DNA of 64,000 bases from an uncultured Acidimicrobiales bacterium (GTDB taxonomy: Bacteria > Actinomycetota > Acidimicrobiia > Acidimicrobiales > SHLQ01): NCBI GenBank assembly GCA_937922235.1, contig CAKZVC010000057.1, forward strand, positions 1 through 64,000. The letters are read 5' to 3'. The notes beneath the pieces are model-generated. The model saw nothing but the letters and a program-made list of their open reading frames with translations, did no database searches and was not told the DNA's origin. The first letter of the stretch is position 1, and every line of letters begins with the position of its first letter. Shown in pieces: positions 9,399 through 42,033 of the stretch. Position numbers and translations under genes: made by a program.

Positions 9399-9491
9399 CG
9401 GCTCAACCCTGACGGGCTTCCCGCCGTTCGCTTCGCTCACTAACCCCGAGCGTGTTGCTTACGCCCCAAACGTCGCCGTCGAAATACCGCT

Positions 9492-17868: not shown

Positions 17869-17869
17869 G

Positions 17870-19657
17870 TCAGCCCTCGTCGGTTTCGCTGTCAGATCCC
17901 TCGTCACTCGATTCGTCCTCAGAGTCTTGTGACGGGGGCACACTTTCTTCATCTGGTTGATCACGTCCGACAATCACTCGATCACCGGTATCGAGCTGCC
18001 CAACAAGCGCCTCGACTTCGACGAAGCCAGCTGATGCCAAGCCAACTCGAACCTCGATGAGTTCGGTGGTTTCGGGATCGATCAGCTTTTCGACTCTCGA
18101 CGAGCCATCGGCTGCTGCCGAAAGAGCGGCAAGCGGCACAGCAAGGACTTCGCCGCCCGTTGAAGAAATCGGGATGCGCAAGCGCAGATTCTGACTGAAC
18201 ACTTCGTCGGGGACGTCGCCGGTTGGTATGAGTCGAACGCGAAATCTATCGCTCGAGAGATTCGGACCGCCTGGGTTGTCCGCAATGAAATCGATCTCGG
18301 CCTCAATAGAGATGCCTTCGTTCGGATCGTCAAGCGTCCCGGCCTGGCCCAGTTCGAGCAACGCCCGGTCAGCCGCCGACACTCCCGAAACGATTGCAAT
18401 CTCTGACCCCGTCACATCCATGACTGAGCCTTGCGGAAAGTCGCCCACCTTGACGTTGATCCGCTGGACCAGCCGCGGTAACGAGGGGAGAAACAGCACT
18501 TCCGAGGCAGGTAGACGTGTACCGATGTCGCGCTCCAGCAAGACAAGGTCCTCGCGAGCATTCGTCAGTTCTTCTCGGAGGTCTCCAACGAGGTCCTGCC
18601 CGCCGGTATCAGACGCCTGCGTGATGGCTTCAGAACGCTGCGCCTTCGCGATCTCGACATCAACTAGTGCGTCAGAGATCAGAGGCGCCCAAACCCGAGC
18701 TTCCGAATCGTATTCAGCCGTTGCTGACTCCACGTTGGCCAGTGCATCATCTAGAAATAGCTTTGCGTCACGACGCTTCACTCGAAGAACCTCAAGCTCC
18801 TGCGCTGTTGGCGTCACACCAGTGTCTGGATGCACGCGCTTACGCACTGCTTGTTCATGACGCATTCGGGCTGTCGAGAATCGTTGCTCAGCACCAGTCA
18901 TAGCCTCTGCCGCAGCAACACGCGCTCGGTCGAGTTCAGCCAACGCCTGCGACCGATCAGCCCTAAGCCCGGCCAACGTTGCCTCGATCTGTGCGACAGA
19001 ACGATCAAGTTCGAGGCGCTGTGAGCGGGGAAGGCCAACAGGAATCGACTCCGCCTCCGCTGATGACAGCGACTTCTCCGCCTGGCTTACCCGATCACGT
19101 GCCCCATCGAGCGTAGCCTGGTCGCCCCGATCAATAGCAGGCGGGCGATAGCCCGCATCTCGATACAACTGCTCGATGGCCTGCTCGGTTCGAGCTCCGA
19201 AGATTCCGTCAACGGGCCCTGGGTCGAGCCCAAGGCGCTCAAGTGCCTCCTCAAGCTGAGCTACATCAGGGCCTTCAAGACCTGGCGTTAGCGAACGAAA
19301 GACCGGCAGCTCACCTTCAAGAACAAACAGTGGCCTACCCGCAACCTCAATGGCAACATCACCTTCGACGAGTTCGTCGCCCTCCGCTTTCGTGAGACGA
19401 GTAATAATCGACGAACCAGCTTCGGAGCCAGTCACCTCAATCCCAGTGGTTTGATCAAACTCGATCGTGCCTCGCGTTACCACGGCTGAAGAAAGCTCGC
19501 GCAGCTCAACCGGTACCGAAATTAGAGAAGCCGGAGGCGGAGAAATCCGTGCAGCAGCCTCGGCCGGGGACTCAATCTGACGACCGAGCATCCAACCAAC
19601 GACACCTGCCAAGACGGCAACTCCCGCAACGGCGACAAGAACAATGCGTCGCGACAT
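17870..19657 (-). CDS. HlyD/MacA-like adaptor with peptidoglycan-binding domain and long coiled coil
   Basis: A 595-residue membrane fusion-type protein. An N-terminal transmembrane anchor (about residues 6-24) is followed by a first lipoyl-like half-domain. A PG_binding_1 domain (about 125-170, GPDVAQLEEALERLGLDPGP, DGIFGARTEQAI) replaces part of the hairpin region. A long Glu/Arg-rich coiled coil (about 185-370) and beta-barrel segments (about 390-560) follow. A highly acidic Ser/Glu tail ends the protein. Such adaptors in Gram-positives link an ABC exporter to the cell wall. ATG at 19657 is preferred over the TTG one codon earlier. It sits between the lipoprotein gene upstream and the ATPase one base downstream. 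A smaller relative lies in the divergent operon at 24960-26000. Confidence 0.82.
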   Translation of the reverse strand: MSRRIVLVAVAGVAVLAGVVGWMLGRQIESPAEAAARISPPPASLISVPVELRELSSAVVTRGTIEFDQTTGIEVTGSEAGSSIITRLTKAEGDELVEGDVAIEVAGRPLFVLEGELPVFRSLTPGLEGPDVAQLEEALERLGLDPGPVDGIFGARTEQAIEQLYRDAGYRPPAIDRGDQATLDGARDRVSQAEKSLSSAEAESIPVGLPRSQRLELDRSVAQIEATLAGLRADRSQALAELDRARVAAAEAMTGAEQRFSTARMRHEQAVRKRVHPDTGVTPTAQELEVLRVKRRDAKLFLDDALANVESATAEYDSEARVWAPLISDALVDVEIAKAQRSEAITQASDTGGQDLVGDLREELTNAREDLVLLERDIGTRLPASEVLFLPSLPRLVQRINVKVGDFPQGSVMDVTGSEIAIVSGVSAADRALLELGQAGTLDDPNEGISIEAEIDFIADNPGGPNLSSDRFRVRLIPTGDVPDEVFSQNLRLRIPISSTGGEVLAVPLAALSAAADGSSRVEKLIDPETTELIEVRVGLASAGFVEVEALVGQLDTGDRVIVGRDQPDEESVPPSQDSEDESSDEGSDSETDEG

Positions 19658-19660
19658 CAA

Positions 19661-20884
19661 CTACTCGGACCCGCTGCCCTCAAACTCGGAAAGGGCTCCA
19701 GCGTTCGCATCGAGAAACTCTTGTTCATACTCAGCGAGCACTTCGAAGAACAACTCGCCTTGTCCTCCACCGGAGAAGAACTCAGGCTCACAGTCCAGGA
19801 CATCAGCAGCGAGCTCAAGCTCACGCTGCTGAAGGTCAGCGAGCGTCGAGAGCTGAACTGCGTCGAGCTCCGGGCCAGAAGGGTCCATTGCGGCGAGAAC
19901 GTCGTTGATCTCTTCCTCCGTCATCGATTCTGGATCGCGACCTTCGAACGGATCGCCGAACGAGTCGCTTTGGAACAACGGCTCCAGCTCATCCTCGAAC
20001 ATCTCGTAGAACTGTTGCCATGGGTCTTCATCGGCAGAAATGCTCTGTCCCTTTCCTGCTAGACAATCGACGAGCTTCTGCTGTTCAGCAACAATTCGAG
20101 GATCAGCGCTGACCCGCTCGTACATCTCCTCAAGATCACCACCAAAGGCTTCATAGAACTCTTGTTCAGGGCCACCGAAAACGTCAGCGCTGTACGCCTC
20201 GCCCTGGCACCCTGTCGGTTCGTAGTTCTGCCAAAACTCGTCTTGTTCCTCCTCAGTAAGCGTGTCATCAAAATCAGGCTCCTGACCGAAGAGATCTTGG
20301 GAGTACGCCTCTTGTTCACTTTCAGACAAACCCTCTACATACGCCTGATTTGGATCGTCCTCCATTGCTTCATCCATCATCTGGACCTGAGAGTCGTCGT
20401 AGCCAACCAAATCGGGACCCACCTGACCCTGAGAGAACGCCTGAGTGGTAATGCCGAAGCCATACTTGGCCACCCATTGCTTACTGCCATACTCCAGACC
20501 ACCATCTTCGAATACAGCATCGAAGACCACCGATCCTGCACCTTGGCTAGTTGGCTGATACTCCCAACCCAGTTCTCGCATACACATGGTGATGCTCTCC
20601 TGAGCCTTGCGCTCAAACTCGACCATTTGGGCCTCAAAATCCTCGTCATTAAAGTTTGAGCGGTCAATCCCCAGAAACTCCTGAATGGGGCTGGTGTACT
20701 CTTCCCACGGATCGACAGCACCTTCACCGTCGCCATTCTCCGCAGCCTCCTGCGCACCAGACGTCTCTTCCGACGGGGCGTTGCCCCCCTCTGCAACTTC
20801 GACGGCCACATCGCTCGTGCTTGAGCCACACGCTCCAACCATGATCAGGAGTGACCAAAAAAGAGGAAACCGAAGGAACTTCAT
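19661..20884 (-). CDS. Secreted acidic lipoprotein with Cys-x-Arg-x-x-Gly motif
   Basis: A 407-residue lipoprotein. A signal peptide is followed by a lipobox (LIMVGAC, Cys about residue 20), then a Ser/Glu-rich linker and a very acidic, aromatic-rich body. Cysteines occur singly; the segment ITMCMRELGWEYQP and a second, LVDCLAGKGQSIS, match segments in the lipoproteins at 21272-22177 and 24366-24950. The ATG at 20884 is chosen because it directly precedes the signal peptide and has AAAGG at 9 nt spacing; upstream residues are unlikely to be coding. It precedes the adaptor gene directly. No known family is recognised. A role as immunity or accessory receptor protein is inference from context. 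Confidence 0.75.
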   Translation of the reverse strand: MKFLRFPLFWSLLIMVGACGSSTSDVAVEVAEGGNAPSEETSGAQEAAENGDGEGAVDPWEEYTSPIQEFLGIDRSNFNDEDFEAQMVEFERKAQESITMCMRELGWEYQPTSQGAGSVVFDAVFEDGGLEYGSKQWVAKYGFGITTQAFSQGQVGPDLVGYDDSQVQMMDEAMEDDPNQAYVEGLSESEQEAYSQDLFGQEPDFDDTLTEEEQDEFWQNYEPTGCQGEAYSADVFGGPEQEFYEAFGGDLEEMYERVSADPRIVAEQQKLVDCLAGKGQSISADEDPWQQFYEMFEDELEPLFQSDSFGDPFEGRDPESMTEEEINDVLAAMDPSGPELDAVQLSTLADLQQRELELAADVLDCEPEFFSGGGQGELFFEVLAEYEQEFLDANAGALSEFEGSGSE

Positions 20885-21057
20885 CCGCATATGCCTTTCG
20901 TTCAAATGAGCGTCGCCGCACTCGCAATACCAATATACACAGCTTGCGATATCGCGAACTGTTGCAGAATTGACCTCTCTAAGCAGGGCCCGCTTCGTTG
21001 TAGCCAAATCCGAAGTCATGAGTTCCCCCGTCAGACTTAACGCCGCACACACTTTGC

Positions 21058-21285
21058 TCAAAGGTCTCGCCATTGCCTTGTGATCTCGTCGAACAGAGCT
21101 TCGGCACTCGATTCCGGCTCCGGAACGTTGTTTGCAGACGGATCGGACTTCTCTAGTTGTTGTAGCTCCGCAGGATCGTCGGACGCCGCAGTGCTGCTTG
21201 CCAAAAGCCTCTCAAGTGCATCTCCGTGGGCTTGCAAGCTGAGTTGGAGGGAATCGTCCTCCGGGTTTTCCCTACTCGTGCCCAT
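21058..21285 (-). CDS. Small acidic hydrophilic protein, unknown
   Basis: A 75-codon ORF beginning at ATG 21285, inside the end of the upstream lipoprotein gene (14-bp overlap). The product (starts MGTSRENPEDDSLQLSLQ) is hydrophilic and acidic, with predicted helix and no signal peptide or membrane segment, ending ALFDEITRQWRDL. Gene packing within the operon supports reality, although the Shine-Dalgarno is weak. Function unknown. Could be a cytoplasmic regulator or immunity factor of the peptide operon. Confidence 0.5.
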   Translation of the reverse strand: MGTSRENPEDDSLQLSLQAHGDALERLLASSTAASDDPAELQQLEKSDPSANNVPEPESSAEALFDEITRQWRDL

Positions 21286-22177
21286 GATCATTCTCGTGCT
21301 CGTGCTCGTGCTCGTGAAATAGTTCCGAGTTGAGCGCCTGGACAAGCGAGCCCTCCCATGTAGAGAGGGCAGTCTCGAAATCGCTGTTCTTAAGGCATTC
21401 TGCATGAATTCCGGCATAAAGGAACTCAAGCTCCCGGAGACCGGCAAGGTCGTTTTCAGATAGCGCACCTGAAGAAAAAGTCTCACCGGGCTCGGTTCCC
21501 AGCTCGTCCGCCGCAGCCTGATCAAGTGCCAGCTGAATCGCACCAAAGGCGGCTGGAAACGTTCCGAGGTCGATGCCCTCGCGCCTTACGCACGACTCCC
21601 ATTTTTCTGCGAACACCCCAAACTCGGTATCGGCGTACAGCAGATCCAAGGCAATCTCCACCTGATCTACCGGTGGCTCCACTGGAGACACACCTTCGCT
21701 AGAGGAGGAAACACACGAATCCGCTGAGCTCACGCCGTCACCCCAAAGGGCTAGTCGGTAGGCGCTTTCCTCCCTAGAGATGGCGCTTGGGTCATCGTCG
21801 AGATTGGGTTGAGGAAAAGGCTCGAAAGTAACCCCTTCAAGGGCGCCTTCGTGGGCAAGCGCTATTCCAAACGCGGTAGTTGCTGCCTGTTCTTCAGTCA
21901 TTGTCAAGAGATACTCTGGCGTTCTGGTGGTAAAGAGCCCGAGCGATCGTTCAAAGAACTCGACAGGTGGAACTGCTTGACTCTCCAGTTCAAACCCCTT
22001 GCCCCTCATGCAGCTATCGACCTCTGCTTGATACTGAATCTGACTCACACGAAGAGTCTGAGCGTCGGAGGAGAGAAACTCCTTGTATCCCGCTACTTGA
22101 CTTGTGGGTTCTTGACCACCGCAGCTAGCGAGCACCAGTGCCGCACCAACCAAGAACCCCCTAAGTCCGCCTTTCAT
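21272..22177 (-). CDS. Secreted lipoprotein with CxRxxG motifs and His-Glu-rich tail
   Basis: A 301-residue lipoprotein with a signal peptide and lipobox (LVLASC, Cys about residue 19). The body is acidic and contains paired motifs VDSCMRGKGFELES and WESCVRREGIDL plus AECLKNSDF, the same type as in the lipoproteins at 19661-20884 and 24366-24950. The C-terminus is an alternating His-Glu run (HEHEHEHENDHGHE), a likely divalent-metal-binding tail. The ATG at 22177 overlaps the stop of the secreted-peptide gene (ATGA), so peptide and lipoprotein are translationally coupled. This suggests a fixed ratio, as for a bacteriocin and its immunity protein, but that is inference. Confidence 0.78.
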   Translation of the reverse strand: MKGGLRGFLVGAALVLASCGGQEPTSQVAGYKEFLSSDAQTLRVSQIQYQAEVDSCMRGKGFELESQAVPPVEFFERSLGLFTTRTPEYLLTMTEEQAATTAFGIALAHEGALEGVTFEPFPQPNLDDDPSAISREESAYRLALWGDGVSSADSCVSSSSEGVSPVEPPVDQVEIALDLLYADTEFGVFAEKWESCVRREGIDLGTFPAAFGAIQLALDQAAADELGTEPGETFSSGALSENDLAGLRELEFLYAGIHAECLKNSDFETALSTWEGSLVQALNSELFHEHEHEHENDHGHE

Positions 22178-22428
22178 CGACAGAGTCTCGTTTCATGAGT
22201 ATGGACAATGAATGGCAACCATTCGCCGCGTGATTGGACGAACCACTTACCGGCCGGCCCCGGCCACACGTTCGGTGTGCTCATGTCTTGGTGACTCCAG
22301 TGGGAATGCCTAGGACTGCTGCACTGCGTGTTGGCACCAGCCACTTCTGAAGTGCCCACCACCGCCACGGTAGCAACTAGTGCGCCAGCAAATAGGGCGG
22401 ATGAAATGGTTCGTTGTTTTGTTTTCAT
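22174..22428 (-). CDS. Secreted two-cysteine peptide, bacteriocin-like
   Basis: An 84-residue precursor. Residues 1-32 are a Sec signal peptide (KTKQRT, hydrophobic core, cleavage after EVAGA). The mature part is about 52 residues, rich in Trp, His, Pro and Ser, with one Cys near each end (NTQCSS and RLCR), so a single disulfide could close the chain. First gene of an operon with two lipoproteins, a small protein, a peptidoglycan-binding adaptor, and an ABC ATPase and permease. That arrangement resembles lactococcin-972-type bacteriocin loci in context, but the peptide itself does not clearly match that family. No Shine-Dalgarno; a TTGACA promoter lies so close that the mRNA may be leaderless. 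Confidence 0.7.
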   Translation of the reverse strand: MKTKQRTISSALFAGALVATVAVVGTSEVAGANTQCSSPRHSHWSHQDMSTPNVWPGPAGKWFVQSRGEWLPFIVHTHETRLCR

Positions 22429-22434
22429 ACGAAT

Positions 22435-22463
22435 GATGTACCACTTAGCAAGACGACTGTCAA
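22435..22463 (-). promoter_or_regulatory. Predicted promoter of the secreted two-Cys peptide operon
   Basis: On the minus strand, a perfect TTGACA (22463-22458) is followed after 17 nt by TACATC (22440-22435). The ATG at 22428 is only 7 nt downstream of the -10 box, so transcription may begin at the ATG itself (leaderless mRNA). No ribosome binding site is present. Confidence 0.5.
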
Positions 22464-22750
22464 GATTTTAGCACACCCCTTTATACGCCTGCTATCGATT
22501 TAGTACTCTCCATAGACCTTCCGTTCGTTTGAAAGTTGACCCTTCCAACGGATGCAGATTCGGCCTAGTTCAATCGCCTGGCGGGCAACCGGGCGGGATG
22601 CTAGTTTCGGCCGAAATGTCATGAGAAACGTGGAGAGAGGCAGAATGCAGTCAGTGACGGGCTTGATCACTGACTCGGATAAGTGGACCGAAATCGATAG
22701 CAGTGCTGCCGTTATCTGTACTTTGAGCTTATGGAAGCTCACGTTAAGTG

Positions 22751-22779
22751 TTGACAGAATCCCCTCTTAGGTTTAGCTT
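22751..22779 (+). promoter_or_regulatory. Predicted promoter of the circular-bacteriocin-like operon
   Basis: Perfect TTGACA at 22751-22756, 17-nt spacer, TAGCTT at 22774-22779. This gives a leader of about 55 nt before the precursor ATG at 22841, which carries GGAGG 9 nt upstream. Confidence 0.55.
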
Positions 22780-22840
22780 GCCTCCTTAAGGGCGGTCGAC
22801 GGTCGATCTGCCTTGATACAAATAGTGGAGGTTTACCTGA

Positions 22841-23176
22841 ATGGTAAAGTCTTTGAATAGTGTAAATGGAATGAGACTGGTGCTCGCAGCCATGGCTGCG
22901 ACTATGTTGCTCTCACTCGTGTTTGCCCAATCTGAGCTGCTGAGCAGCGGAGGGCTTGACGCCTTCAGTTTCGCTGATCTTCAGCGAAACTTCGGCATGG
23001 GCAAATGGTCGTCCTATGCCACTTCACACTTGGTGGTCTACGCGATCCAAGGCGGCTCGTACGCTGCCTTTGCTGCGATCATTGGATCAGGCGTAGGAGT
23101 TGTCCTAGCAGGTGCACTTCTTGCGGCGTACGGCTACATCCGCTGGTGGGGCCGCAAGCAGATCCAGGCTTGGTAG
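22841..23176 (+). CDS. Putative circular bacteriocin precursor (AS-48/circularin-like)
   Basis: A 111-residue precursor. Residues 1-52 form a leader with a hydrophobic helix (about 13-29). Residues 53-111 form a hydrophobic, Gly/Ala-rich, cationic peptide with no Asp or Glu. It starts MGKWSS and ends IRWWGRKQIQAW, with Lys/Arg clustered in the last 11 residues. Known AS-48-type bacteriocins are head-to-tail circles of about 58-74 residues; AS-48 itself joins an N-terminal Met (MAK) to a C-terminal Trp (IAW) after a 35-residue leader. The Met53-Trp111 segment (59 residues) reproduces that pattern, including a Gly-Gly turn (GGSY) after the first helix and a basic C-terminal helix. Strong Shine-Dalgarno (GGAGG). 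The SpoIIM-like gene next door strongly supports the call. The exact cleavage site is inferred. Confidence 0.75.
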   Translation: MVKSLNSVNGMRLVLAAMAATMLLSLVFAQSELLSSGGLDAFSFADLQRNFGMGKWSSYATSHLVVYAIQGGSYAAFAAIIGSGVGVVLAGALLAAYGYIRWWGRKQIQAW

Positions 23177-23186
23177 GGGCACGGTG

Positions 23187-23768
23187 ATGATGAGCAAGCG
23201 CGAAATTCGAGCGATACCGCGAGGAGTCGCAATTTTCAATGGCCCGAGCTGGGATTTCGGCACGCGTTTCGCGCTTGCTCTTTCCGTCGGAGCCTTCATT
23301 GGGGGCATGTTGCTATCGGGAGGAGCATATGACGGCCAGACTCCCGGAGACGTCGCCTTCGTCGGGATTGAAAGATCCTTTGGTTCCTTCCAATCGATCT
23401 TGATAGTGAACGGCACCTCCCTACTAATAATCCTCGTTGGGGTCCTGTCGGCAGGCTTGATTTCTTCGATGTTCGCGATGCTCCTGTTCCTCTTTCTTGG
23501 CATCGAGACAAGTCTGATCGTGAACACGCTCGGACTCGAAAGGATGCTCGTCGTCACGGGCCCGCATGCAATCTTCGAGCTCGCCGCATTCGTCATTGCG
23601 CTGAGGGCTGCACTGCTACCCCTTGGAGAGCTTTCCCAAGGCATCGAAACGGGAGAACAAATGAATATCGGTGTAGTCAAAGAGTTTGGCAGGCTCGCTT
23701 TGCTGTCAATCGTCCTACTTCTTGTCGGCGCAACTGTGGAGGCCCTTGGTGTTTCAAGCAATTTCTGA
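23187..23768 (+). CDS. SpoIIM/DUF95-family membrane protein, circular bacteriocin maturation/export type
   Basis: A 193-residue protein with about five transmembrane helices. The diagnostic block VVTGPHAIFELAAFVIALRAALLPLGELSQG (about 125-155) corresponds to the conserved PHGxFElpA region of SpoIIM/DUF95, and NGTSLLIILVGVLSAG and ATVEALGV also fit. DUF95 proteins are found in all characterised circular-bacteriocin clusters (for example As-48C), where they are needed for production; their biochemical role is not settled. The ATG at 23187 is chosen (AGGGG, 7 nt spacing; 10 bp after the precursor stop). The frame is open upstream into the precursor gene but that part is not coding. An actinobacterial SpoIIM homologue next to a hydrophobic precursor peptide is the strongest contextual clue in this operon. 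Confidence 0.8.
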   Translation: MMSKREIRAIPRGVAIFNGPSWDFGTRFALALSVGAFIGGMLLSGGAYDGQTPGDVAFVGIERSFGSFQSILIVNGTSLLIILVGVLSAGLISSMFAMLLFLFLGIETSLIVNTLGLERMLVVTGPHAIFELAAFVIALRAALLPLGELSQGIETGEQMNIGVVKEFGRLALLSIVLLLVGATVEALGVSSNF

Positions 23769-24333
23769 CATTCCAAGAATCTTGATGTTGCCAGTTGACA
23801 TTCACCAGAGAGTTCGTGCGCAGAGTTATAGTTGGAGACAACTACTTCTGGCCATCGGGACGCTAACCGTGATGGCAACATCGTTTGGCGCACTTCATCT
23901 ACGTGACGTGCTTCTCCCAGGAGGCGGCCAGGACCCGGTAAGGATCTACCTCAGCTCTCTTTTCCAGGTCACACCGTTCATGGTGATGTCTCTCGTCTTT
24001 CTCGTTGTGATCGGCACTGAAATCACCGCAATGGCGAGCCAAAGGTTCGGTTTCGAGATTGACAAGGCTGAGGTTTGTGCGGCGTTTTGTTTCTCAACGA
24101 CTCCAATGGTCGTCCGCAGTCTAATGACGGGGCTCGTGGCTGCCTTCGGCCTAGGCACCGGGTTCACAACGGCGCCCTGGGTGCTAGTCGACCCCACCCC
24201 ACTCTGGTCTTCAGCAATTATGTGGCTTGCGATCGGCGAAGACACCGTGCCCCGGCCTATACGAATCGCTCTCGTCTCATTGCCGTCACTTCTTGGCTAC
24301 GGAACTCTCTTGGGCATTGGCCTCCTTGTTTAA
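23749..24333 (+). CDS. Multi-pass membrane protein of the bacteriocin cluster (YIP1-like?)
   Basis: A 194-residue protein with about five hydrophobic helices and short polar loops; begins VFQAISDIPRILMLPVD. It resembles YIP1-type small membrane proteins in layout, but I cannot assign a family with confidence. GTG at 23749 is preferred because of GGAGG six bases upstream. The start lies inside the SpoIIM-like gene (20-bp overlap), which implies coupled expression. A role in precursor maturation, export or producer immunity is inferred from position only. Confidence 0.65.
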   Translation: MFQAISDIPRILMLPVDIHQRVRAQSYSWRQLLLAIGTLTVMATSFGALHLRDVLLPGGGQDPVRIYLSSLFQVTPFMVMSLVFLVVIGTEITAMASQRFGFEIDKAEVCAAFCFSTTPMVVRSLMTGLVAAFGLGTGFTTAPWVLVDPTPLWSSAIMWLAIGEDTVPRPIRIALVSLPSLLGYGTLLGIGLLV

Positions 24334-24365
24334 CGAATCTCATCTACTGAAAAGGAATTAGAACC

Positions 24366-24950
24366 ATGAATTTCAAAAATGCCCACCTATGGATAATGGG
24401 CGTCGCTGTCCTGAGCCTTCTCGCTGTTGGTTGCACAAGTGCGAGCGAAAGCACAACCGCAGAAGGCGGAGCGGACCTTTCACCCATTCAAGACGAAATT
24501 GACCAAATTCTCACGTCGGCGAGCGACTATCAGCGCGACCTCATGGCCGGTGGTGTTACCCGAAACGAGTACGAACTTGCAGCCGCGCAGATGCAATCAT
24601 GTGCTGAAAAGGTTGGGCACTCTGGGACGCTCGATGTAACCGGAGAATTCGTCCAGTTCGACCTGGACGACTCGGAGGGCGCGGTCGTGGCTGGGATCCT
24701 CGGTGACGTCCCAGAGGAAGTACAAGACTGCTACACGGAGTACCTCGAGGCAGTAGAACTCACGTATGTTTCGACGTCCGTCGACAGCGTGGCCAACCTC
24801 CAGAATGAAGAAGAGCTCTTCTACCAGTGTCTTCGTAGCAAGGGTTATCCAATTCCCGACAATCCCTCCGGCAATCCTGACACCTCCGCAGTGGTTGAGA
24901 CGGCCGAGTACGACGAGATGCTGGAGTGCTGGGAGGTGGCGGGCGTATAG
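24366..24950 (+). CDS. Secreted lipoprotein with Cys-x-Arg-x-x-Gly motif
   Basis: A 194-residue lipoprotein. The signal peptide and lipobox end in LLAVGC (Cys about residue 23), followed by a Ser/Thr/Glu linker. The body has Cys in MQSCAEKVGHSG, VQDCYTEYLEAVE, FYQCLRSKGYPIPDN and MLECWEVAG. The third is the same motif type as in the two lipoproteins of the divergent operon. Shine-Dalgarno AAAAGGAA precedes ATG 24366. It is followed after 9 bp by the adaptor gene, as the lipoprotein-adaptor order in the other operon. Probable accessory or immunity lipoprotein, inferred. Confidence 0.75.
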   Translation: MNFKNAHLWIMGVAVLSLLAVGCTSASESTTAEGGADLSPIQDEIDQILTSASDYQRDLMAGGVTRNEYELAAAQMQSCAEKVGHSGTLDVTGEFVQFDLDDSEGAVVAGILGDVPEEVQDCYTEYLEAVELTYVSTSVDSVANLQNEEELFYQCLRSKGYPIPDNPSGNPDTSAVVETAEYDEMLECWEVAGV

Positions 24951-24959
24951 TCCGAGCTC

Positions 24960-26000
24960 ATGAAATTCCTTGCTATTGGCCTCCTTGGCACTGTTGCAAC
25001 GCTGCTCTTCACCTCCGTCGCCTCTTGGCGTCTAATCCCCACCAAGGACGCCGCCCTAAGCCCAACTATCGAACAAGTGATCGAGTCTGCGACGGCGGAG
25101 CAGTACTTCGTAGAGGGATCGATAGGCCTCGAGACTCTCGAGCCGACGCGCCTTAGTTTGTTCACTCCACGCGAAACAATAGCGGGGACCGTCACAAGTG
25201 TTGTCATCAAACAAGGGGCCACTCTCGAAAGTGGCGAAATAGCATTTACCGTCGATGGCGAACCAATTGTCGCGGTTGCTTCCGAAGAACCTATTCCGAC
25301 ATCTCTTCGACGAGGCGATAAGGGCCAAGCTGTCCTCCATCTGAATCGCCTCCTCGAAGACTTGGGTTTCTTAGAACCTGCGAACGTCGACAGCGTCTTT
25401 GGATGGAAGACGGAGAAAGCGGTTCGGAGCTTCAACAATGAGCTGCTCGATCTCGATAGTCGGATATTCCGTCTCGAACGTACGATCTGGCTCGGCAGCG
25501 AAGGTCATCTTGTCGATCAAGTATTCGTCGAACAGGGTGCCGCATGGCCGTCTGGGGGAACGAAAGTTGTCGAGCTGATACAGATCGCTCCAGAGATCCA
25601 CGCTACCTCGGAGCTACTGAGTAAGAACGAGACATACCAGGTGATCTCGGAGGGCGACTTGGAGGGCCTTCTCGCAGTCCCGAGCAATCAAGCCGAAGGA
25701 TGGGTAATCATGCACGGGCTCGAACCTGACCAGCTCTCGCAAATTGCGCCAGCTGAAGGTGAAGACCAACCGAGCGTGAATGTAGTCGCCATCGAATCCC
25801 AATCGGTATTCAGGATTCCGAAAGCGGCTATTTACGTTGATCGGCAAGGATCAACATGCGTCTTGACCGACTCCCGGAGCGGGGTGCAGGTGTCCATCGT
25901 CGATGAAGCCCCAGCGCACTTCCTGATTGCCGCTGATCTGGGAACAGAAATCTCGTTCGCACTCGCGCCGCTTCTAGAAGGGGAACCGCCCACATGCTAG
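24960..26000 (+). CDS. HlyD-like adaptor with peptidoglycan-binding domain
   Basis: A 346-residue envelope protein. An N-terminal membrane anchor (about residues 4-22) is followed by a lipoyl-like beta segment (ETIAGTVTSVVIKQGATLESGEIAF), a PG_binding_1 domain (about 115-165, RRGDKGQAVLHLNRLLEDLGFLEPANVDSVFG), and a beta-rich C-terminal half. It lacks the long coiled coil of its relative at 17870-19657. In AS-48 loci the second transporter likewise has a HlyD-like accessory protein, an ATPase and a permease. The ATPase ATG (25994) lies inside its last codons. Probably couples the exporter to the cell wall. Confidence 0.78.
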   Translation: MKFLAIGLLGTVATLLFTSVASWRLIPTKDAALSPTIEQVIESATAEQYFVEGSIGLETLEPTRLSLFTPRETIAGTVTSVVIKQGATLESGEIAFTVDGEPIVAVASEEPIPTSLRRGDKGQAVLHLNRLLEDLGFLEPANVDSVFGWKTEKAVRSFNNELLDLDSRIFRLERTIWLGSEGHLVDQVFVEQGAAWPSGGTKVVELIQIAPEIHATSELLSKNETYQVISEGDLEGLLAVPSNQAEGWVIMHGLEPDQLSQIAPAEGEDQPSVNVVAIESQSVFRIPKAAIYVDRQGSTCVLTDSRSGVQVSIVDEAPAHFLIAADLGTEISFALAPLLEGEPPTC

Positions 26001-26677
26001 AAGATGCGGTTGTCGCCGAAGATCTCTCGTTCTCGTACAGCCCCGAGACTCCAATCATTGAGAACCTTAGTCTCAACATCCCCACTGGGTCGTCTGTCGC
26101 CATCATTGGCCCGTCGGGATCGGGGAAATCGACTCTCCTCGCACTTCTTGGAGGCTTCGTCGCCCCTACGTCTGGGCTCCTGTCAGTTATTGGAGTTGAT
26201 ATCTCGCAGGGGTCGCTCCGACGACGAACACAGCTTCAACAGGAGCTTGGATGGGTGCAACAGACCACAAATCTCTTACCCTTCCGATCTGCTCGAGACA
26301 ACGTTGCCCTGCCCCTCCGGCTTCGAGGCTGTGGATTCAATGAGGCAAACGCTATAGCGAATCAGGCGCTCGAAGTAGTCGGCCTCCGAGAGCTCGCCGG
26401 ATCCGCATGCCGCCGACTATCCGGAGGGCAAGCGCAGCGTGTGTGTATCGCACGCGCCGTTGTTACTAGACCGCGCCTCCTGCTCGCCGATGAACCAACC
26501 GGCCAACTCGATGCTTCGACGACAAAGTACATCTTGAACGCACTCCACGACGCACTCAAGCTCGTTCCCGGCGCCACCCTCGTCATTGCGACCCACGACG
26601 AGGCAGCCACCTCCATCTGTGAACACACCCTCTCGGTTTCCGACCGTCAGGTTGTAGGAAATCTTGTCCTGTCATGA
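25994..26677 (+). CDS. ABC transporter ATP-binding protein (LolD/MacB type)
   Basis: A 227-residue ATPase. Walker A GPSGSGKST, Q-loop GWVQQTTNLLP, signature LSGGQAQR, Walker B LLLADEPTGQLD and a switch His in VIATHDE are present. It overlaps the adaptor gene by 7 bp and the permease gene by 4 bp (ATGA), so the three are one coupled export unit, comparable to the second ABC transporter (EFGH) of AS-48 clusters, which contributes to secretion or self-protection. Confidence 0.9.
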   Translation: MLEDAVVAEDLSFSYSPETPIIENLSLNIPTGSSVAIIGPSGSGKSTLLALLGGFVAPTSGLLSVIGVDISQGSLRRRTQLQQELGWVQQTTNLLPFRSARDNVALPLRLRGCGFNEANAIANQALEVVGLRELAGSACRRLSGGQAQRVCIARAVVTRPRLLLADEPTGQLDASTTKYILNALHDALKLVPGATLVIATHDEAATSICEHTLSVSDRQVVGNLVLS

Positions 26678-27774
26678 GGTTCACCGAGATTGTTCGCGAG
26701 TCACTTCTACGACTTCGGTCGCGACCGCTTCACGTGTCCGTGATCTTCGCCTTTATGCTCGTGCTTGGCGCCACCTCGGTGTCTGTCGACGCCGCAAGTG
26801 TTCACCAAATCCTTGGCGACGAAGAGCTCCGTACCGCAGCCGGTCAATATGTCATCGTCGCTGCCCCTACCGGCGAGGCGAACTCCTTCACAGTTGGGGA
26901 ATGCCTCAACCTTGGAGCGTCGCCATCAACCCTCACCGTTGCCGCTGCAACAACAGCCCAACCCGCCAAGTTGAAGAACCTTGGCGGCACCTCAGTCGTC
27001 GCTATGGAAGGCACTTCCGGCCTGCTCTCCATATGGTCCGCCGATCAACGCTCAATCGATCTGGAGGCAGAACACACCATCGGGCTCGTTGGACCCGAGC
27101 TGGGCCAGCGTCTCTCTTTGGCCAACGGGTCGAGCCTCCACCTAGAGTTTCAAAACGGACGATCTATCGAACACCTGCAAGGCCTGGAAGTCGGCGAGAT
27201 CAATCGCAACGACGTTGCGGAGGGATGGTTGGTCCTCATTGGCGAACTTGATGCGACCCGCCGCGCTGACGAGTGCTGGATCGAGGCCAACCCTGGATAC
27301 CGCCATCTTGCACAGGCCACCGCACAATACCGCCTCGCCCATCAAGGTGAGCCTCCCCTTGTCAGGCCATTGCTTACAGACTCAGATGCACAGGCAGACT
27401 TTGCAGCACGACTTCGCGACCGGCTAAGCCGATACTCTCCCGTTGTTGCAAGCGGAGTGTGGATCATTTTCAGCCTAACGCTGGCCTCACTCACAGCGAA
27501 AGAAACCGCCGTCTATCGCTCATCTGGGGGGAGGCGGCTCGATCTTATACTTGTCCGCATGGTCTACCTGACCGTGATCTTGTCGGTCGTGCTTATTTTG
27601 CTCAGCCTCGGATCAACTCTTCTAGTAAATCAGTTTCTATCCGGAAGCGTTCCCCACTCCGTTGCGAACACTGGACTAGGGGGCCTGGGAGTGTTCAGTG
27701 TCGCAGTCGTTCTTTCTCCGGCTTTAGAAGAGGCAGTGAATCGCCGATCCTTAATAGAGGTCTTGAGGGAATGA
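26674..27774 (+). CDS. Divergent FtsX/MacB-like ABC transporter permease
   Basis: A 366-residue permease: first transmembrane helix at about residues 20-42, a large extracytoplasmic domain (about 45-250), then three C-terminal helices (about 258-360) separated by RSSGGRRLDLILVRM, the FtsX cytoplasmic loop. Sequence is divergent compared with the permease at 15920-17182, but the topology is the same. The ATG overlaps the ATPase stop. Partner of the preceding ATPase and adaptor in the bacteriocin operon. Confidence 0.78.
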   Translation: MRFTEIVRESLLRLRSRPLHVSVIFAFMLVLGATSVSVDAASVHQILGDEELRTAAGQYVIVAAPTGEANSFTVGECLNLGASPSTLTVAAATTAQPAKLKNLGGTSVVAMEGTSGLLSIWSADQRSIDLEAEHTIGLVGPELGQRLSLANGSSLHLEFQNGRSIEHLQGLEVGEINRNDVAEGWLVLIGELDATRRADECWIEANPGYRHLAQATAQYRLAHQGEPPLVRPLLTDSDAQADFAARLRDRLSRYSPVVASGVWIIFSLTLASLTAKETAVYRSSGGRRLDLILVRMVYLTVILSVVLILLSLGSTLLVNQFLSGSVPHSVANTGLGGLGVFSVAVVLSPALEEAVNRRSLIEVLRE

Positions 27775-27840
27775 CTGGGCTGCATTGTCAATACAAAGTT
27801 GTCCGACTCGCTACGATAGTACCTACCAAAGGAGAAAATA

Positions 27841-27948
27841 GTGATTGAAGCATTTATCGATTTGTTGATCTACGGAGTTAACCTTGTCCGGGCAAAACTC
27901 AAAAACGAGAAGGATCAACTTGGCTCAAGTGAGCCTGTGGACTGTTGA
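27841..27948 (+). CDS. 35-residue small protein, possible immunity or leaderless peptide
   Basis: A GTG-started ORF behind a near-perfect Shine-Dalgarno (AAGGAG, 6 nt spacing). Its TGA overlaps the ATG of the following ABC ATPase (TGATG). The product has one amphipathic or membrane-binding helix (IEAFIDLLIYGVNLVRAKLK), then a hydrophilic tail ending in Cys. It is too short for usual gene finders. In AS-48-type clusters a small membrane peptide (immunity, As-48D1) is encoded next to an ABC ATPase, so an immunity role is plausible. A leaderless peptide product is an alternative. The ribosome binding site and coupling make it likely to be translated. Confidence 0.6.
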   Translation: MIEAFIDLLIYGVNLVRAKLKNEKDQLGSSEPVDC

Positions 27949-28610
27949 TGACAACGGTCCACTCCCTCAAGCTTGACCGCGTCTCGAAGTCATACTCCGG
28001 CGCAATCGTCTTACGGGACGTCCATTTCGAAGTTGAGCCATCAGATTTTCTCGCTCTTCGCGGCGCTAACGGATCTGGCAAATCAACCCTTCTGGCGATT
28101 GCCTCTGGGGTCCTTCGACCGACCTCAGGGACCGTGTCGGTCAACGGACTTCAGTTCCGTGGCTCAGCGGCTGAACGCGCCCGTGGCAACATTGGCTACT
28201 TGCCGCAGAAGTACTCGCTTCCATCGAGTCTGAGGACACGAGAATTAATCTCCGCCGTTGTCCGACTTCGCGATGAGCAGCGAGATGAGCGGGTCTGGAT
28301 CGACGAGCTCTTCGAAGGATTCGGACTGGATTCATTTCGAGATATCGAGATTGCGCATCTCAGCGGTGGCACAAAGCAAAAGGTGGCGATTGTAGCAGCG
28401 ATCGTCAACCGTCCGATGTTCCTCATCCTCGATGAGCCGCTCGCCGGACTCGACGATAACTCACGTGAGTTTCTCCTCGATCTTCTTTCGCAGCTCGCAG
28501 CTACCGGAACGGGCATCGTCGTGGCAAGTCATGGAAAAGACGTAGTTAGTAGTGCCCACCATGTTGTCGAAGTTTCCAAAGGAGCTCTCAACACAGGCGC
28601 TCGGCCGTGA
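27948..28610 (+). CDS. ABC transporter ATP-binding protein (ABC-2 type)
   Basis: A 220-residue ATPase with Walker A GANGSGKST, Q-loop GYLPQKYSLP, signature LSGGTKQK, Walker B FLILDEPLAGLDD and His in ASHGKD. It is of the CcmA/bacitracin-immunity type rather than the MacB type, so the cluster has two different ABC transporters. ATG 27948 overlaps the stop of the 35-codon ORF; the gene ends in a GTGA overlap with the large permease. Confidence 0.9.
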   Translation: MTTVHSLKLDRVSKSYSGAIVLRDVHFEVEPSDFLALRGANGSGKSTLLAIASGVLRPTSGTVSVNGLQFRGSAAERARGNIGYLPQKYSLPSSLRTRELISAVVRLRDEQRDERVWIDELFEGFGLDSFRDIEIAHLSGGTKQKVAIVAAIVNRPMFLILDEPLAGLDDNSREFLLDLLSQLAATGTGIVVASHGKDVVSSAHHVVEVSKGALNTGARP

Positions 28611-30100
28611 GATCCGTTCGGCTAGTAAAACTTGCTCGGCTGCAAGCCCTGGTCGCTCTACGCCGTGCGTCGCGTTGGTCAATCCCGGTGGCGCTTGTAG
28701 TCGGATACATCCTGACCAGAGTCTTCAAGGTGACGTTCGAGCGCTTTGACGCGTCATTTGGCCATGATCGCGCTGTTTTTCTCGTTCTACTTCTCGCTGG
28801 AACGCTTTGGGCTGTCTTCTCCGGTATCAGAATTTTCCTAAGGGACTCTGACTTCGTGCACGAAGTCGATGTGGTGCTGCAACTCGCAAACCGTCCTGAT
28901 CTTCACTTTTCAAGCAGAATGTTGGCCGAGTGGACCAGTGCAATGGCCCTGGTCACATTGGCAGCGATCTACACATTTAACATTGAACTCGGAGCGTCGA
29001 ACGCTCAGATCCTGTTCGCGACAGGATTGTTCGCTCTGACGCTAGCGACCTACGCAAGTCTCTTTCGAGTCGTCGTCTCGCGCTTAAGGAGCAACCGAAG
29101 TCTGTATCGACGCCTCGCAACTGCCCTCGGCCTTGTCCTTGGATCAGTCGGTGTCGGAATTTCAATCGCAACCGAGGCCTTTCTTGCCGCATCCACCAGC
29201 CAACAGGCGTCGATTATCGACAATACTCAACTAGTCCCCCCTTTCTGGCCAGCGTCGGTAGCGGTTTTACAGAACGGAGCGACGCGACCGACAGTCTTCG
29301 TCGCTCTGGCTGTTGTCCAGATCTTGCTTCTCGTGAAGCTCACCCACGTGGTGGAGAACAGGTCACCCGGAGTTGAAGCAGCCGCTGGGGCGATACGAAC
29401 TCCGAATTTCGCAACGCGCCCTCTTTTCTTAGCCGTATTTCTTTATTCCCTCAAAGCACTCAAGGACGCAACCGACGAATGGCCTGAGCTGATGCGAGTC
29501 TCACCAGCTCTAGGTATCAGCCTGATACACCTCGACAGCAACATAGGCGACACCATCCCACTCCACCTCGTGATTTCGTCGGCTGTTGCCGCCCTCATCG
29601 TCGGTAGCTGCAGCAATCTGCTGGGAGGAACTTCGGGGTTGCTAGGCATCCCGGGTCTATCTCTTGGCTCGACGAGAGCCTACGTAGCAGGCCGAGTCCT
29701 GACTCGCCTGCTTCCGCTAGGTATCCTGCTCTTCGTCGGCTTCAGTATCAGCGCAGCCATCACCGGCGACTTCGCCGTTTTTCCACAAGTTGCCTGGGCA
29801 CTCATCTACGGATCGTTTGTCGGAATTCCAATCGCCATTGCAATCTCAGTCCGATGGCCAACAGACTTGACATCTAGCGAAAAGGTCCTGCAAAGCCAAG
29901 CTCTACGATCGGTTGCCATCATCGCCACTTTCGGAACCACATTCTTTACCGGGTCACTTCTCAACGCCCTAGGAGTTTGGGTTACCCTCGTAGTCCTAGT
30001 TGCGCTGCCAATTTGGTGGGCCGTGGTCGGGTGGATGTCTCGCTTCACACGAGCTTTCACCCCGGATTTGTTCCTGCTCGGAAGCGATACTGCAGGGTAA
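28607..30100 (+). CDS. Large polytopic membrane protein, ABC-2-like permease
   Basis: A 497-residue protein with about ten to twelve hydrophobic segments, beginning at GTG 28607 that overlaps the ATPase stop. There is a positively charged N-terminus (RSVRLVKLARLQALVALRRASR). It has no recognisable catalytic motif. It probably forms the channel for the ATPase at 27948-28610. AS-48 clusters also contain a large polytopic protein (As-48B) essential for production, so this may be the functional equivalent, but similarity is by position and size only. It closes the operon. Confidence 0.7.
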   Translation: MRSVRLVKLARLQALVALRRASRWSIPVALVVGYILTRVFKVTFERFDASFGHDRAVFLVLLLAGTLWAVFSGIRIFLRDSDFVHEVDVVLQLANRPDLHFSSRMLAEWTSAMALVTLAAIYTFNIELGASNAQILFATGLFALTLATYASLFRVVVSRLRSNRSLYRRLATALGLVLGSVGVGISIATEAFLAASTSQQASIIDNTQLVPPFWPASVAVLQNGATRPTVFVALAVVQILLLVKLTHVVENRSPGVEAAAGAIRTPNFATRPLFLAVFLYSLKALKDATDEWPELMRVSPALGISLIHLDSNIGDTIPLHLVISSAVAALIVGSCSNLLGGTSGLLGIPGLSLGSTRAYVAGRVLTRLLPLGILLFVGFSISAAITGDFAVFPQVAWALIYGSFVGIPIAIAISVRWPTDLTSSEKVLQSQALRSVAIIATFGTTFFTGSLLNALGVWVTLVVLVALPIWWAVVGWMSRFTRAFTPDLFLLGSDTAG

Positions 30101-30683
30101 GAGAGCGAGCCTCATATCGCGTATTGGAGACTTCCTTCGCGTAGTCCCACCAGGGGCGACGAGCTAATGGGCACCCAGCTAACTAGTCCACTCTTTTGAT
30201 AGCACCCGGTTGCAGCCCGCACCAGGTCCTGTTTCGACCTGGTTGGTTCCGACGAATTCTTCGACGCTTGAAGAAATTCTCTGGGGACCCCGATGAGGAG
30301 CATGCACGATTCCCGAACGTGACGCCTACTGTGCCGATCGATTGGGTGGGGATGTCAACCAATAGTGACCACGTTGAGCGATTAAGAAGAAGCGGGATCT
30401 GCAACAACACTCCTCTACAATTCATCGGATCAAAGGGGAGCGAGAAGTGAGCGTTGACGAGACCCGACGAAGCCTTCGTTCAGTTGCCGTCGTTCGGCCC
30501 ACTCGTCACGCTGCGAGTATTGCGCACTCGCTGGAAATGCCCACGCTCACGTGCGGTGTCATGCACTGTAGAACACTCCGAGATCGCCCCGCCAGGCACC
30601 GGTTGGCGACACGTGCTAGCTCAGTGGGCAACCGAGCAGGTTGTCTAGCGGGGCCGCTTGTAGTTCGAAGGACTCAAGTACTC
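30101..30683. other. Intergenic region without convincing gene
   Basis: About 580 bp downstream of the bacteriocin-like operon. Short open frames on both strands lack ribosome binding sites and family-like sequence. A stretch near 30608-30660 (GCTC...GAGC and TTCGAA) is reminiscent of tRNA arms but does not fold as a tRNA. Possibly decayed DNA. Confidence 0.4.
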
Positions 30684-30995
30684 TCAGGTTGTTAGTTGTG
30701 TGATCCACGGGCGGGCGATGAAGAAGCCATAGACACCGACGCCGACAACTAACAAGGCCATGATTAACGCTTTGTACCGTACTGGCCACTCTCGAAATCT
30801 TTGGACCCAACTGCGCAATGCGGAAGATACGCGGTTGCCAGGTGAGATACGATCGAGCCCTGCGATAGCGACCAGAATTCCGGGACCTGGAATACCCGGA
30901 AATGATAAAAGAAGTCCCATCACCAACATCAGGGAACCCGATAGGACGCGTCGCTGTTGGTCGTTCTCGGACTCCCTGATGTGATTGTCAAGCAA
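30684..30995 (-). CDS. PGPGW-type small transmembrane protein
   Basis: A 103-residue protein with a hydrophilic N-terminus and then two hydrophobic segments. The first, with FPGIPGPGILVAIAGLDRIS, fits the PGPGW family of putative membrane proteins (Pro-Gly-Pro-Gly core followed by a Gly-rich helix). A basic loop (RSWVQRFREWPVRYK) and a second helix follow. TTG at 30995 has AGGAG nine bases upstream. Function unknown in the family. Confidence 0.6.
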   Translation of the reverse strand: MLDNHIRESENDQQRRVLSGSLMLVMGLLLSFPGIPGPGILVAIAGLDRISPGNRVSSALRSWVQRFREWPVRYKALIMALLVVGVGVYGFFIARPWITQLTT

Positions 30996-31007: not shown

Positions 31008-31346
31008 CTAGCTTCCGGTGACCCTACGAACATATGGCTTCCAACGCCAATTCTCGCCGACCTTGCGAGTGCTTGTCAGCTTCTGGCCACTTCCGACCGA
31101 CGCACTTGCGTCCGAGGCACGAGCCCAGTCAACCGTCACGTTCATCCGGCGACCGCAGTTGTTCGTCACTACAACCTTCGATACGTGCCAATCCTCCGTC
31201 GACCAACGTGCATCCTCGGTGTAAGACGACGTGCGGTACGTGAGGCACGAGGCTCCCGCCTGAGCTGGTGCTACCACGAAGGCCCCCGTGACAAGTAGAG
31301 AGCTCGCTGCAAGCGCACCGAACTTCTGTTTAACTTTTTGACTCAT
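31008..31346 (-). CDS. Secreted small beta-rich protein with one disulfide
   Basis: A 112-residue precursor. Signal peptide residues 1-31 (KVKQKF, hydrophobic core, cleavage after PAQAGA). Mature part about 81 residues with two cysteines (ASCLTYR and TNNCGRR) about 30 residues apart and Trp/Thr-rich alternating strands. The spacing C...W...V-N-x-C resembles the first half of the small actinomycete secreted beta-sandwich proteins (tendamistat-like), but a second Cys pair is missing. ATG 31346 is chosen; the frame is open for 11 codons more. Role unknown; could be secreted inhibitor or toxin-like. Confidence 0.6.
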   Translation of the reverse strand: MSQKVKQKFGALAASSLLVTGAFVVAPAQAGASCLTYRTSSYTEDARWSTEDWHVSKVVVTNNCGRRMNVTVDWARASDASASVGSGQKLTSTRKVGENWRWKPYVRRVTGS

Positions 31347-31918
31347 ATTGTTCCACTCTTCCTTTTGATAGGTTTGCAAGATGACTTTGGGTTACCAGCG
31401 TAACCTTCCTTCAATCTTCATACAATCGTATATTATATTGCATTCATTGTCTATCGGGACTCTTGTAAAATCGGCTGCAGGTTTATAGAAGCTTCGATTA
31501 ATCGACCTCCAAGCCCATCACTGGTTCAGGTCGAGAAAGGCTCACTGGGACGCAGGTGACTTTGAGTGCTGAAGCAAGGTGCGAACCGTTGGCAGCTAGC
31601 CGATTTATTCAAAAGGGGCCCGAATGACTTCCGAAGGTCGTCGCCGAGCAGTGGGCCGCTGTTTGAATCTCTTGTGGAGAGCATCGCCTGCAACTCGTGA
31701 CGCCGGTCTGACATTCCAATCGTCACCCAGGTTGCATAGGGTGCTTCTACAGATCTCTCTGGGGTAGACCGAAAGATTCGGGTCAGGTAACATGCGGGGT
31801 AGTACAACTTCGACACCGTCTCGCGAGTAGACTAGCGATTCCGCTCCGACTATTTCCCCCTAAAGGCAGTCGGTTGCAACCCACACCTCACAACTAAGAA
31901 TGCCAAGGATGTAAGAAT
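31347..31918. other. A+T-rich intergenic region
   Basis: About 570 bp. An open frame at 31526-31816 (minus) has no ribosome binding site or recognisable sequence, so I do not call it. The first 100 bases are markedly A+T-rich and may hold the promoter of the secreted protein at 31008-31346. Confidence 0.4.
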
Positions 31919-36816: not shown

Positions 36817-36900
36817 GCGGACGTGGCGGAACTGGCAGACGCGCCAGGTTTAGGTCCTGGTGCCCGAAAGGGCTTGGGGGTTCGATTCCCCCCGTCCGCA
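36817..36900 (+). tRNA. tRNA-Leu (anticodon TAG)
   Basis: 84 nt. Acceptor GCGGACG pairs with CGTCCGC. Anticodon arm CCAGG-TTTAGGT-CCTGG gives anticodon TAG. A long variable arm (TGCCCGAAAGGGCTT) marks a class II tRNA, and the T arm is GGGGG-TTCGATT-CCCCC. Discriminator A; CCA is not encoded. Confidence 0.95.
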
Positions 36901-36912
36901 CGCACTCCCACT

Positions 36913-41944: not shown

Positions 41945-41959
41945 TTGGTTGTCGTGTTG

Positions 41960-42033
41960 CGCGCCCACAGGGAGTCGAACCCCAAACCTTCCCAGAAAGC
42001 ACCGGGTGCTCTATCCAATTGAGCTATGAGCGC
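41960..42033 (-). tRNA. tRNA-like gene with unusual anticodon arm (possible pseudo-tRNA)
   Basis: Minus strand. Acceptor GCGCTCA pairs with TGGGCGC, the D arm GCTC-GAGC is intact, and the T arm GGGG-TTCGACT-CCCT is good. The anticodon arm is not canonical: the best 5-bp stem CCCGG/CTGGG leaves only a 6-nt loop (TGCTTT). Forcing a 7-nt loop gives CTT at 34-36 but G at position 33 and a broken stem. The D and T arms resemble tRNA-Arg/Lys. It is either a degenerate tRNA gene or a tRNA with a deletion in the loop. Identity left open. Confidence 0.6.

Follow-up and report, generated by a model that had tools for sequence, protein, structure and literature searches.

We analyzed a 64,000-nucleotide (nt) stretch of DNA (here referred to as the window; contig CAKZVC010000057.1, positions 1 to 64,000) from an uncultured Acidimicrobiales bacterium, in which a set of genes at 22841 to 30100 had been predicted, from the sequence alone, to be a circular-bacteriocin gene cluster. 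As predicted, the set comprises ten open reading frames (ORFs) in one direction, and each was open on the forward strand at the coordinates given here. The first (22841..23176; 111 amino acids [aa]) encodes the candidate precursor peptide, with a signal-peptide-like leader (residues 1 to 46) and a predicted core (L47 to W111). It is followed by genes for a SpoIIM/DUF95 membrane protein (23187..23768; 193 aa), a Yip1-like multi-pass protein (23749..24333; 194 aa), a lipoprotein with a CLRSKG motif (24366..24950; 194 aa), a membrane-anchored adaptor with a peptidoglycan-binding domain (24960..26000; 346 aa), an ATP-binding cassette (ABC) ATPase of the FtsE/LolD/MacB type (25994..26677; 227 aa), a permease (26674..27774; 366 aa), a 35-aa candidate immunity peptide (27841..27948), an ABC-2-type ATPase (27948..28610; 220 aa), and a large polytopic protein with about nine membrane segments (28607..30100; 497 aa).

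The overlapping or abutting gene ends noted in the original prediction were all present: the GTG start at 23749 lies 20 nt inside the SpoIIM gene, and the overlaps at 25994, 26674, 27948, and 28607 measure 7, 4, 1, and 4 nt, respectively. The remaining genes are separated by gaps of 10 nt (precursor to SpoIIM), 32 nt (before the lipoprotein), 9 nt (before the adaptor), and 66 nt (before the 35-codon ORF). Given these gaps and overlaps, the ten genes likely form one transcription unit. The sequence GGAGG lies 9 nt upstream of the precursor ATG. The possible promoter further upstream (TTGACA-17-TAGCTT; 22751..22779, forward strand), which was read from the sequence, held up only in part: TTGACA at 22751 and the 17-nt spacer are present, but TAGCTT matches at only 3 of 6 positions, and a promoter scan of 22400 to 30700 did not accept the site (0 sites, versus 3.7 in shuffled sequences [shuffles]).

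Circular bacteriocin precursors consist of a leader and a hydrophobic, cationic core of approximately 58 to 70 aa, although acidic members exist. The window precursor is of this size, with a 46-residue leader (ending in FSFAD) and a predicted core of 65 aa with a net charge of +5. We aligned it with five other precursors of known type, namely, those of two actinobacterial loci (L057 and L059), an Enterococcus plasmid (L055), AS-48 (L060), and a Listeria innocua relative (L061). The alignment placed Leu47 on the first core residue; the junctions read AD/LQRNFGM in the window, AD/LATNLGI in L057, PD/LATQLGI in L059, PM/LSANIGI in L055, AH/MAKEFGI in L060, and AH/LAKEFGI in L061. The Protein Data Bank (PDB) chains of NKR-5-3B and AS-48 also begin at the position aligned with Leu47. 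According to the available text of PMC5695211, circular bacteriocin cores begin with Leu, except for that of AS-48 (Met), and mostly end in Trp or Tyr, with polar or acidic residues favored at position -1 of the cleavage site; by alignment, L47 as the first residue and W111 as the last residue fit the published end rule. Because the alignment, the PDB chain starts, and the published end rules agree on Leu47, the ring more likely spans Leu47 to Trp111 than residues 53 to 111, and the core start originally proposed is probably six residues too late. The predicted mature ring (22979..23173, forward strand; LQRNFGM...RKQIQAW), whose start coincides in the alignment with that of the mature NKR-5-3B and AS-48 chains, would have a cyclic monoisotopic mass of 6986.65 Da. 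Behind the conserved G-I/M turn, the window core has three extra residues (GKW) that neither the other precursors nor NKR-5-3B possess. A pattern combining the junction motif with a terminal Trp, written after the alignment had been seen, was applied to 3,069 frames of at least 60 aa from the window and the loci, with overlapping copies counted repeatedly. Ninety-two frames ended in Trp and 14 carried the motif; each of these 14 was the window precursor or the precursor of a circular bacteriocin.

The predicted resemblance of the precursor to NKR-5-3B- and AS-48-type peptides was supported by several comparisons in addition to the junction alignment. NKR-5-3B (PDB 2mp8) was the only match at an E value of ≤10 among 177,635 PDB sequences. 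The E values (whole precursor, 0.93; residues 53 to 111, 0.69) are not significant and prove nothing by themselves, but we regard it as a pointed coincidence that this lone match is a circular bacteriocin. Residues 57 to 111 align to NKR-5-3B residues 8 to 64 with one gap of two residues, and the aligned stretch takes in SSYA and the final AW. Against NKR-5-3B, no score from 10,000 shuffles equaled the real one, whether the full precursor, residues 47 to 111, or residues 53 to 111 were used. In a search of the 738 window frames with a full-length profile built from the five other precursors, the window precursor ranked first (E value, 0.0041; 2 of 4,999 shuffles as good). The core-only profile was weaker (rank 3 of 738; 19 of 4,990 shuffles as good). 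Against the PDB, the five-precursor profile matched nine sequences at an E value of ≤10, eight of which are named as circular bacteriocins or fragments thereof, while a profile-profile comparison of the precursor gave an E value of 0.0017 but a probability of just 15%. The curated family PF09221 (Bacteriocin_IId; cutoff, 23.6 bits), named in the original prediction as a check, was not hit: the precursor had no match at an E value of ≤1, and the only PF09221 stretch in its own genome was an 11.6-bit one on another contig. TIGR03651 (circularin A/uberolysin; cutoff, 30.7 bits) likewise did not match the precursor at an E value of ≤1 or anything in its own genome at an E value of ≤0.1. Judged by these models, the precursor is not placed in the TIGR03651 subfamily and lies outside the curated precursor subfamilies tested. 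The single contig-scan match of the precursor, on a Lachnospiraceae contig (L031), lay within a 346-aa ORF of response-regulator/histidine-kinase type (assessed by eye) and was discarded as a chance match.

The SpoIIM/DUF95 assignment of the second gene, the AS-48C counterpart, was confirmed by PF01944 (29.7 bits; cutoff, 26.9). Its product scored 24.5 bits against the SpoIIM protein of L088, a locus in another genome of the phylum, and no shuffle of 5,000 reached this score. Elsewhere in the same genome (L078; G000:C114:4352-4876), another SpoIIM-domain protein is encoded, a typical one (154 bits). Pfam confirmed both ABC ATPases (25994 and 27948). A DUF95 protein and an ABC ATPase, two of the components expected in a circular-bacteriocin cluster, are both present. 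The ABC-2-type ATPase at 27948, the AS-48D counterpart, scored 88.7 bits against the L057 ATPase, 50.7 bits against AS-48D, and 72.0 bits against AS-48G. The polytopic protein at 28607 has no Pfam or NCBIfam match and corresponds to AS-48B by size and topology (9 hydropathy segments versus 11 in AS-48B). The 35-aa peptide occupies the AS-48D1 position beside the ATPase, and its GTG start is preceded by its own Shine-Dalgarno-like sequence (AAAGGAG).

The genes at 23749 and at 24960 to 27774 resemble a second transporter. The 23749 protein corresponds to YknW and AS-48E by position; it matched PF04893 (Yip1) below the cutoff (E value, 6.7e-4; 20.0 bits; cutoff, 28.6), and 9 of 925 shuffles scored as well against AS-48E. 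In the available text of PMC8659200 and PMC8534725, Yip1 proteins turn up repeatedly in circular-bacteriocin clusters. The adaptor at 24960, the AS-48F/YknX counterpart by position, has an N-terminal membrane segment and, as predicted, a peptidoglycan-binding domain (PF01471; 26.9 bits; cutoff, 23). Of the predicted pair of an ABC ATPase and an FtsX-type permease, the former was established, and for the latter the topology agrees. The ATPase at 25994 (AS-48G/YknY counterpart) scored 100.7 bits against AS-48G versus 37.2 bits against AS-48D, with FtsE as its best NCBIfam model (below the cutoff), and by its similarity to AS-48G it provides the FtsE/MacB-type ATPase that is characteristic of a YknWXYZ/AS-48EFGH-type pump. 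The permease at 26674 (AS-48H/YknZ counterpart) has one N-terminal and three C-terminal membrane segments, with a hydropathy layout like that of AS-48H, and no match in Pfam, NCBIfam, or the PDB. The CxRxxG lipoprotein of the original prediction was found at 24366, with the lipobox LLAVGC and the motif CLRSKG. It is without an AS-48 counterpart, is weakly similar to a lipoprotein of the divergent neighboring genes (E value, 0.003 without composition correction), and is possibly a surface immunity or sensing protein.

The AS-48/bacteriocin 21 cluster (plasmid pPD1; NZ_KT290268; L060) has nine gene kinds in common with the window. Its order is precursor, polytopic protein, SpoIIM protein, ATPase, 56-aa peptide, multi-pass protein E, adaptor F, ATPase G, and permease H; we assigned the gene letters by position, with names partly from PMC3942455. 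In these letters, the window reads A-C-E-lipoprotein-F-G-H-D1-D-B. Nine of the ten window genes match AS-48 genes by kind (several by position and topology only), and the lipoprotein is extra. Both precursors end in AW, with a core of 65 aa in the window versus 70 aa in AS-48. The window adaptor is of the peptidoglycan-binding type, unlike that of the AS-48 cluster, and clear sequence similarity between the two clusters was found in the ATPases only. In AS-48, as described in the available text of PMC3942455, the EFGH pump provides self-protection and C1D provides secretion.

Similar gene kinds occur in other systems. The ten-gene cerecyclin (cyc) cluster of Bacillus cereus, in the available account (PMC8534725), comprises a precursor, a membrane protein, a DUF95 protein, an ATPase, a 58-aa immunity candidate, a YIP1 protein, and the ABC transporter cycEFG; these are the same kinds as in the window, YIP1 protein included. 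The cerecyclin genes also include a regulator, whereas the window operon has no recognized regulator and carries a lipoprotein instead; the two are likened by gene kinds, not by sequence. YknWXYZ of Bacillus, which expels the SDP toxin and thereby confers SDP resistance, resembles the window in combining a Yip1 protein, an anchored adaptor, an ATPase, and a MacB-like permease (PMC4887032, available part), but the window permease and adaptor do not match MacB or HlyD models. In four actinobacterial loci (L056 to L059), a large polytopic protein was present in all four (from the ORF lists; L059 by eye), SpoIIM was detected by Pfam in L056 and L059 (45.6 bits), and Yip1 was detected by Pfam in L057 (55.4 bits). 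The ORF lists of these four loci showed no adaptor of the peptidoglycan-binding type, although no search aimed at one was made. NKR-5-3B is much more similar to the precursors of these loci than to the window precursor; like the latter, the L057 and L059 precursors have a leader ending in D followed by L...G(I/M) and a terminal AW.

On the basis of these results, we consider it probable that this operon makes and exports a peptide of the circular-bacteriocin type and protects the producer against it. This is by far the best reading of the sequence, and class membership is supported by the gene set and the precursor anatomy, in line with the original prediction. The gene set, the SpoIIM protein, the ATPases, and the precursor similarity all come directly from this analysis. 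As supporting context, the best relative of the window SpoIIM protein in the phylum (296 genomes) sits with polytopic, ATPase, Yip1-like, and MacB-like genes (L088).

Circular bacteriocins are stable peptides with antimicrobial action; PMC8659200 and PMC5695211 give the enzymes that remove the leader and close the ring as unidentified. By analogy with characterized relatives, from which cleavage, cyclization, the division of labor between the two transporters, and activity are extrapolated, the precursor would be made with a 46-residue membrane-directed leader that would be cut off after Asp46, and a bond between Leu47 and Trp111 would close a cationic, hydrophobic ring of 65 residues. A maturation/export complex may consist of the polytopic protein, the SpoIIM protein, and the ABC-2-type ATPase. 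The Yip1-like protein, the peptidoglycan-binding adaptor, the FtsE/MacB-type ATPase, and the permease of FtsX topology may form a second, YknWXYZ/AS-48EFGH-like pump that would clear the peptide from the producer membrane, aided by the 35-aa peptide and perhaps by the lipoprotein. The ring would permeabilize the membranes of other Gram-positive cells.

Several results weigh against the circular-bacteriocin interpretation. The precursor has no match to any curated bacteriocin family in Pfam or NCBIfam, and BLAST searches of the precursor and the SpoIIM protein against 72,556 plasmids gave no match. Single-sequence AlphaFold models of the whole precursor and of residues 47 to 111, run without a positive control, were poor, with long helices and no compact bundle (pTM scores of 0.32 and 0.42); the fold expected of a circular bacteriocin is a saposin-like helix bundle. 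The SpoIIM protein did not score above shuffles against L056, L057, and L061, and 52 of 1,000 shuffles were as good against AS-48C (1 of 969 against L059). Shuffles were likewise not exceeded by the polytopic protein against AS-48B, L057, and L061, by the adaptor against AS-48F, or by the permease against AS-48H; for the polytopic protein against L088, 34 of 962 and 855 of 985 shuffles were as good. The Yip1-like protein was not above shuffles against L056, L057 (617 of 981), or L059 (from a slice cut by guess), AS-48E itself has no Yip1 match, and neither this protein nor the permease was clearly above shuffles against L088. The 35-aa peptide did not resemble AS-48D1 (556 of 1,000 shuffles scored as well), and AS-48C1 has no counterpart in the window; AS-48C1 is named in the available text of PMC3942455 and was not picked out in the pPD1 cluster here.

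Cyclization is not visible in sequence, and a Sec-like hydrophobic stretch and a VFA-Q site were recognized in the leader by eye. The product could be a linear membrane-active peptide (an antimicrobial or cannibalism peptide that bears a signal peptide or is of a leaderless-like type); it would be secreted without ever being cyclized, and the two transporters would serve its export and immunity as well. Yip1 proteins accompany leaderless bacteriocins too, as stated in the available part of PMC11580447. The same part of that source, however, treats the DUF95 protein as class defining for circular bacteriocins and describes none in leaderless clusters, and Leu47 and Trp111 match the joined ends of circular peptides. 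We therefore regard a linear product as unlikely.

We consider it very unlikely that the locus has nothing to do with a bacteriocin, i.e., that two ABC transporters and accessory membrane proteins resist foreign peptides or manage the envelope beside an unrelated small membrane protein. YknWXYZ-type pumps do protect against a peptide toxin (PMC4887032, available part), the divergent neighboring genes include an adaptor, an ATPase, and a MacB permease, and a second SpoIIM protein exists in the genome. However, the small gene stands first in the operon and encodes an NKR-5-3B-like C-terminal half with a terminal Trp, and this explanation leaves the set of B, C, and D plus E to H counterparts unaccounted for. 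Another scenario is that the locus once made a circular bacteriocin and has been retained solely for immunity, its precursor no longer being matured. This would be in keeping with the high divergence of the precursor, its GKW insertion, and the L088 machinery, which has no recognizable precursor; but none of the ten frames is disrupted, start sites are present, and the spacing is tight, and this scenario appears the most improbable of those considered.

Circular bacteriocin systems have been reported mostly from Firmicutes. At an E value of ≤0.001, the window precursor was found only in its own genome (1 of 248 sampled genomes of the order); at an E value of ≤0.1, 32 of the 248 matched, own genome included, and the best other match (E value, 0.003) lay within a 502-aa frame. 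The polytopic protein (1 of 198 genomes), the SpoIIM protein (1 of 198), and the permease (1 of 118) were also confined to the own genome at an E value of ≤0.001, in order samples that overlap between searches. Four sampled genomes of the same genus gave no precursor, polytopic, or SpoIIM match, while the adaptor domain was common (29 of 118 order genomes, own included). A class-wide profile search matched 6 of 395 genomes, own included, with four of the five others in frames of 283 to 680 aa; one class-wide match (L063) overlapped other frames on both strands and was judged to be due to chance.

Across the phylum, TIGR03651 matched 24 of 396 genomes at an E value of ≤0.1. Three were above the cutoff, all from one family (L056 to L058; by our guess, Rubrobacter). 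Among the 21 genomes below the cutoff, only G448 (L059) was inspected; its match, in a 100-aa frame, reaches the profile end. At 16.4 bits, the L059 precursor fails the cutoff of 30.7 although it ends in KYGTKYAAAW, and we judged L059 to be a real circular-bacteriocin locus from its sequence and SpoIIM gene. The loci in these genomes extend, for example, over 5605 to 10318 in L057 and 4955 to 8891 in L059. Because four other genomes of the phylum carry such loci, the phylum is not new for circular bacteriocins. The window SpoIIM protein matched 3 of 296 phylum genomes, own included, the others being G337 (L088, the better match) and G461. L088 (G337:C34:69000-85000, 4573 to 13555) encodes two polytopic proteins, ATPases (by eye), a SpoIIM protein (89.1 bits), MacB proteins, and a Yip1-like 109-aa frame below the Yip1 cutoff.

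A circular-bacteriocin cluster is possibly a first for this class of actinobacteria. We found no paper pairing "circular bacteriocin" with "Acidimicrobi" or with "Rubrobacter" in a literature consisting mostly of papers free of subscription. As far as their available text goes, PMC8692599 treats bacteriocin clusters only in general, and PMC8534725 assigns 2 of 6,928 circular bacteriocin precursors to Actinobacteria. A divergent cluster of this kind helps to tell parts that appear conserved (SpoIIM, ABC-2 ATPase, polytopic protein, and Leu...Trp ends) from exchangeable ones, and it suggests that curated precursor models miss members outside Firmicutes.

The G+C content is 0.553 at 19 to 36 kb, versus 0.609 and 0.617 in the flanks, and third-position G+C is also lowered from approximately 15.9 to 35.6 kb; these values suggest that the stretch was gained horizontally. 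Adjoining the cluster is a divergent operon-like run (15920-22428, reverse strand) that encodes an 84-aa secreted peptide (a signal sequence followed by a part with two Cys residues), two lipoproteins, a MacA-like adaptor that includes a peptidoglycan-binding domain, an ABC ATPase, and a MacB permease. The MacA-like adaptor is 36% identical to the cluster adaptor over 87 aa, and the run may be a second peptide export/immunity system. A lactococcin-972-type reading of the 84-aa peptide was rejected, with no such Pfam or NCBIfam match at an E value of ≤0.1. We tentatively propose, as a broader view that we hold with less than even confidence, that the window might hold the first circular bacteriocin system of its actinobacterial class and the founder of a precursor group outside the curated families; that its pump might have been remodeled to include an adaptor of the peptidoglycan-binding type plus a surface lipoprotein, a design shared with the divergent MacAB-like operon; and that the low-G+C stretch might be a horizontally gained two-system antimicrobial island.

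Just past the cluster, a small secreted protein with a signal sequence is encoded on the reverse strand (31008-31379), with no convincing family match. No 14-base piece of the tRNA-Leu gene at 36817-36901, considered as an attachment site, occurs elsewhere in the window. ARAGORN reported a tRNA-like gene with a two-base anticodon call at 41959-42033 (reverse strand). The genome contains six WhiB genes, which fits Actinomycetota; among 14 control genomes, only that of Corynebacterium had WhiB.

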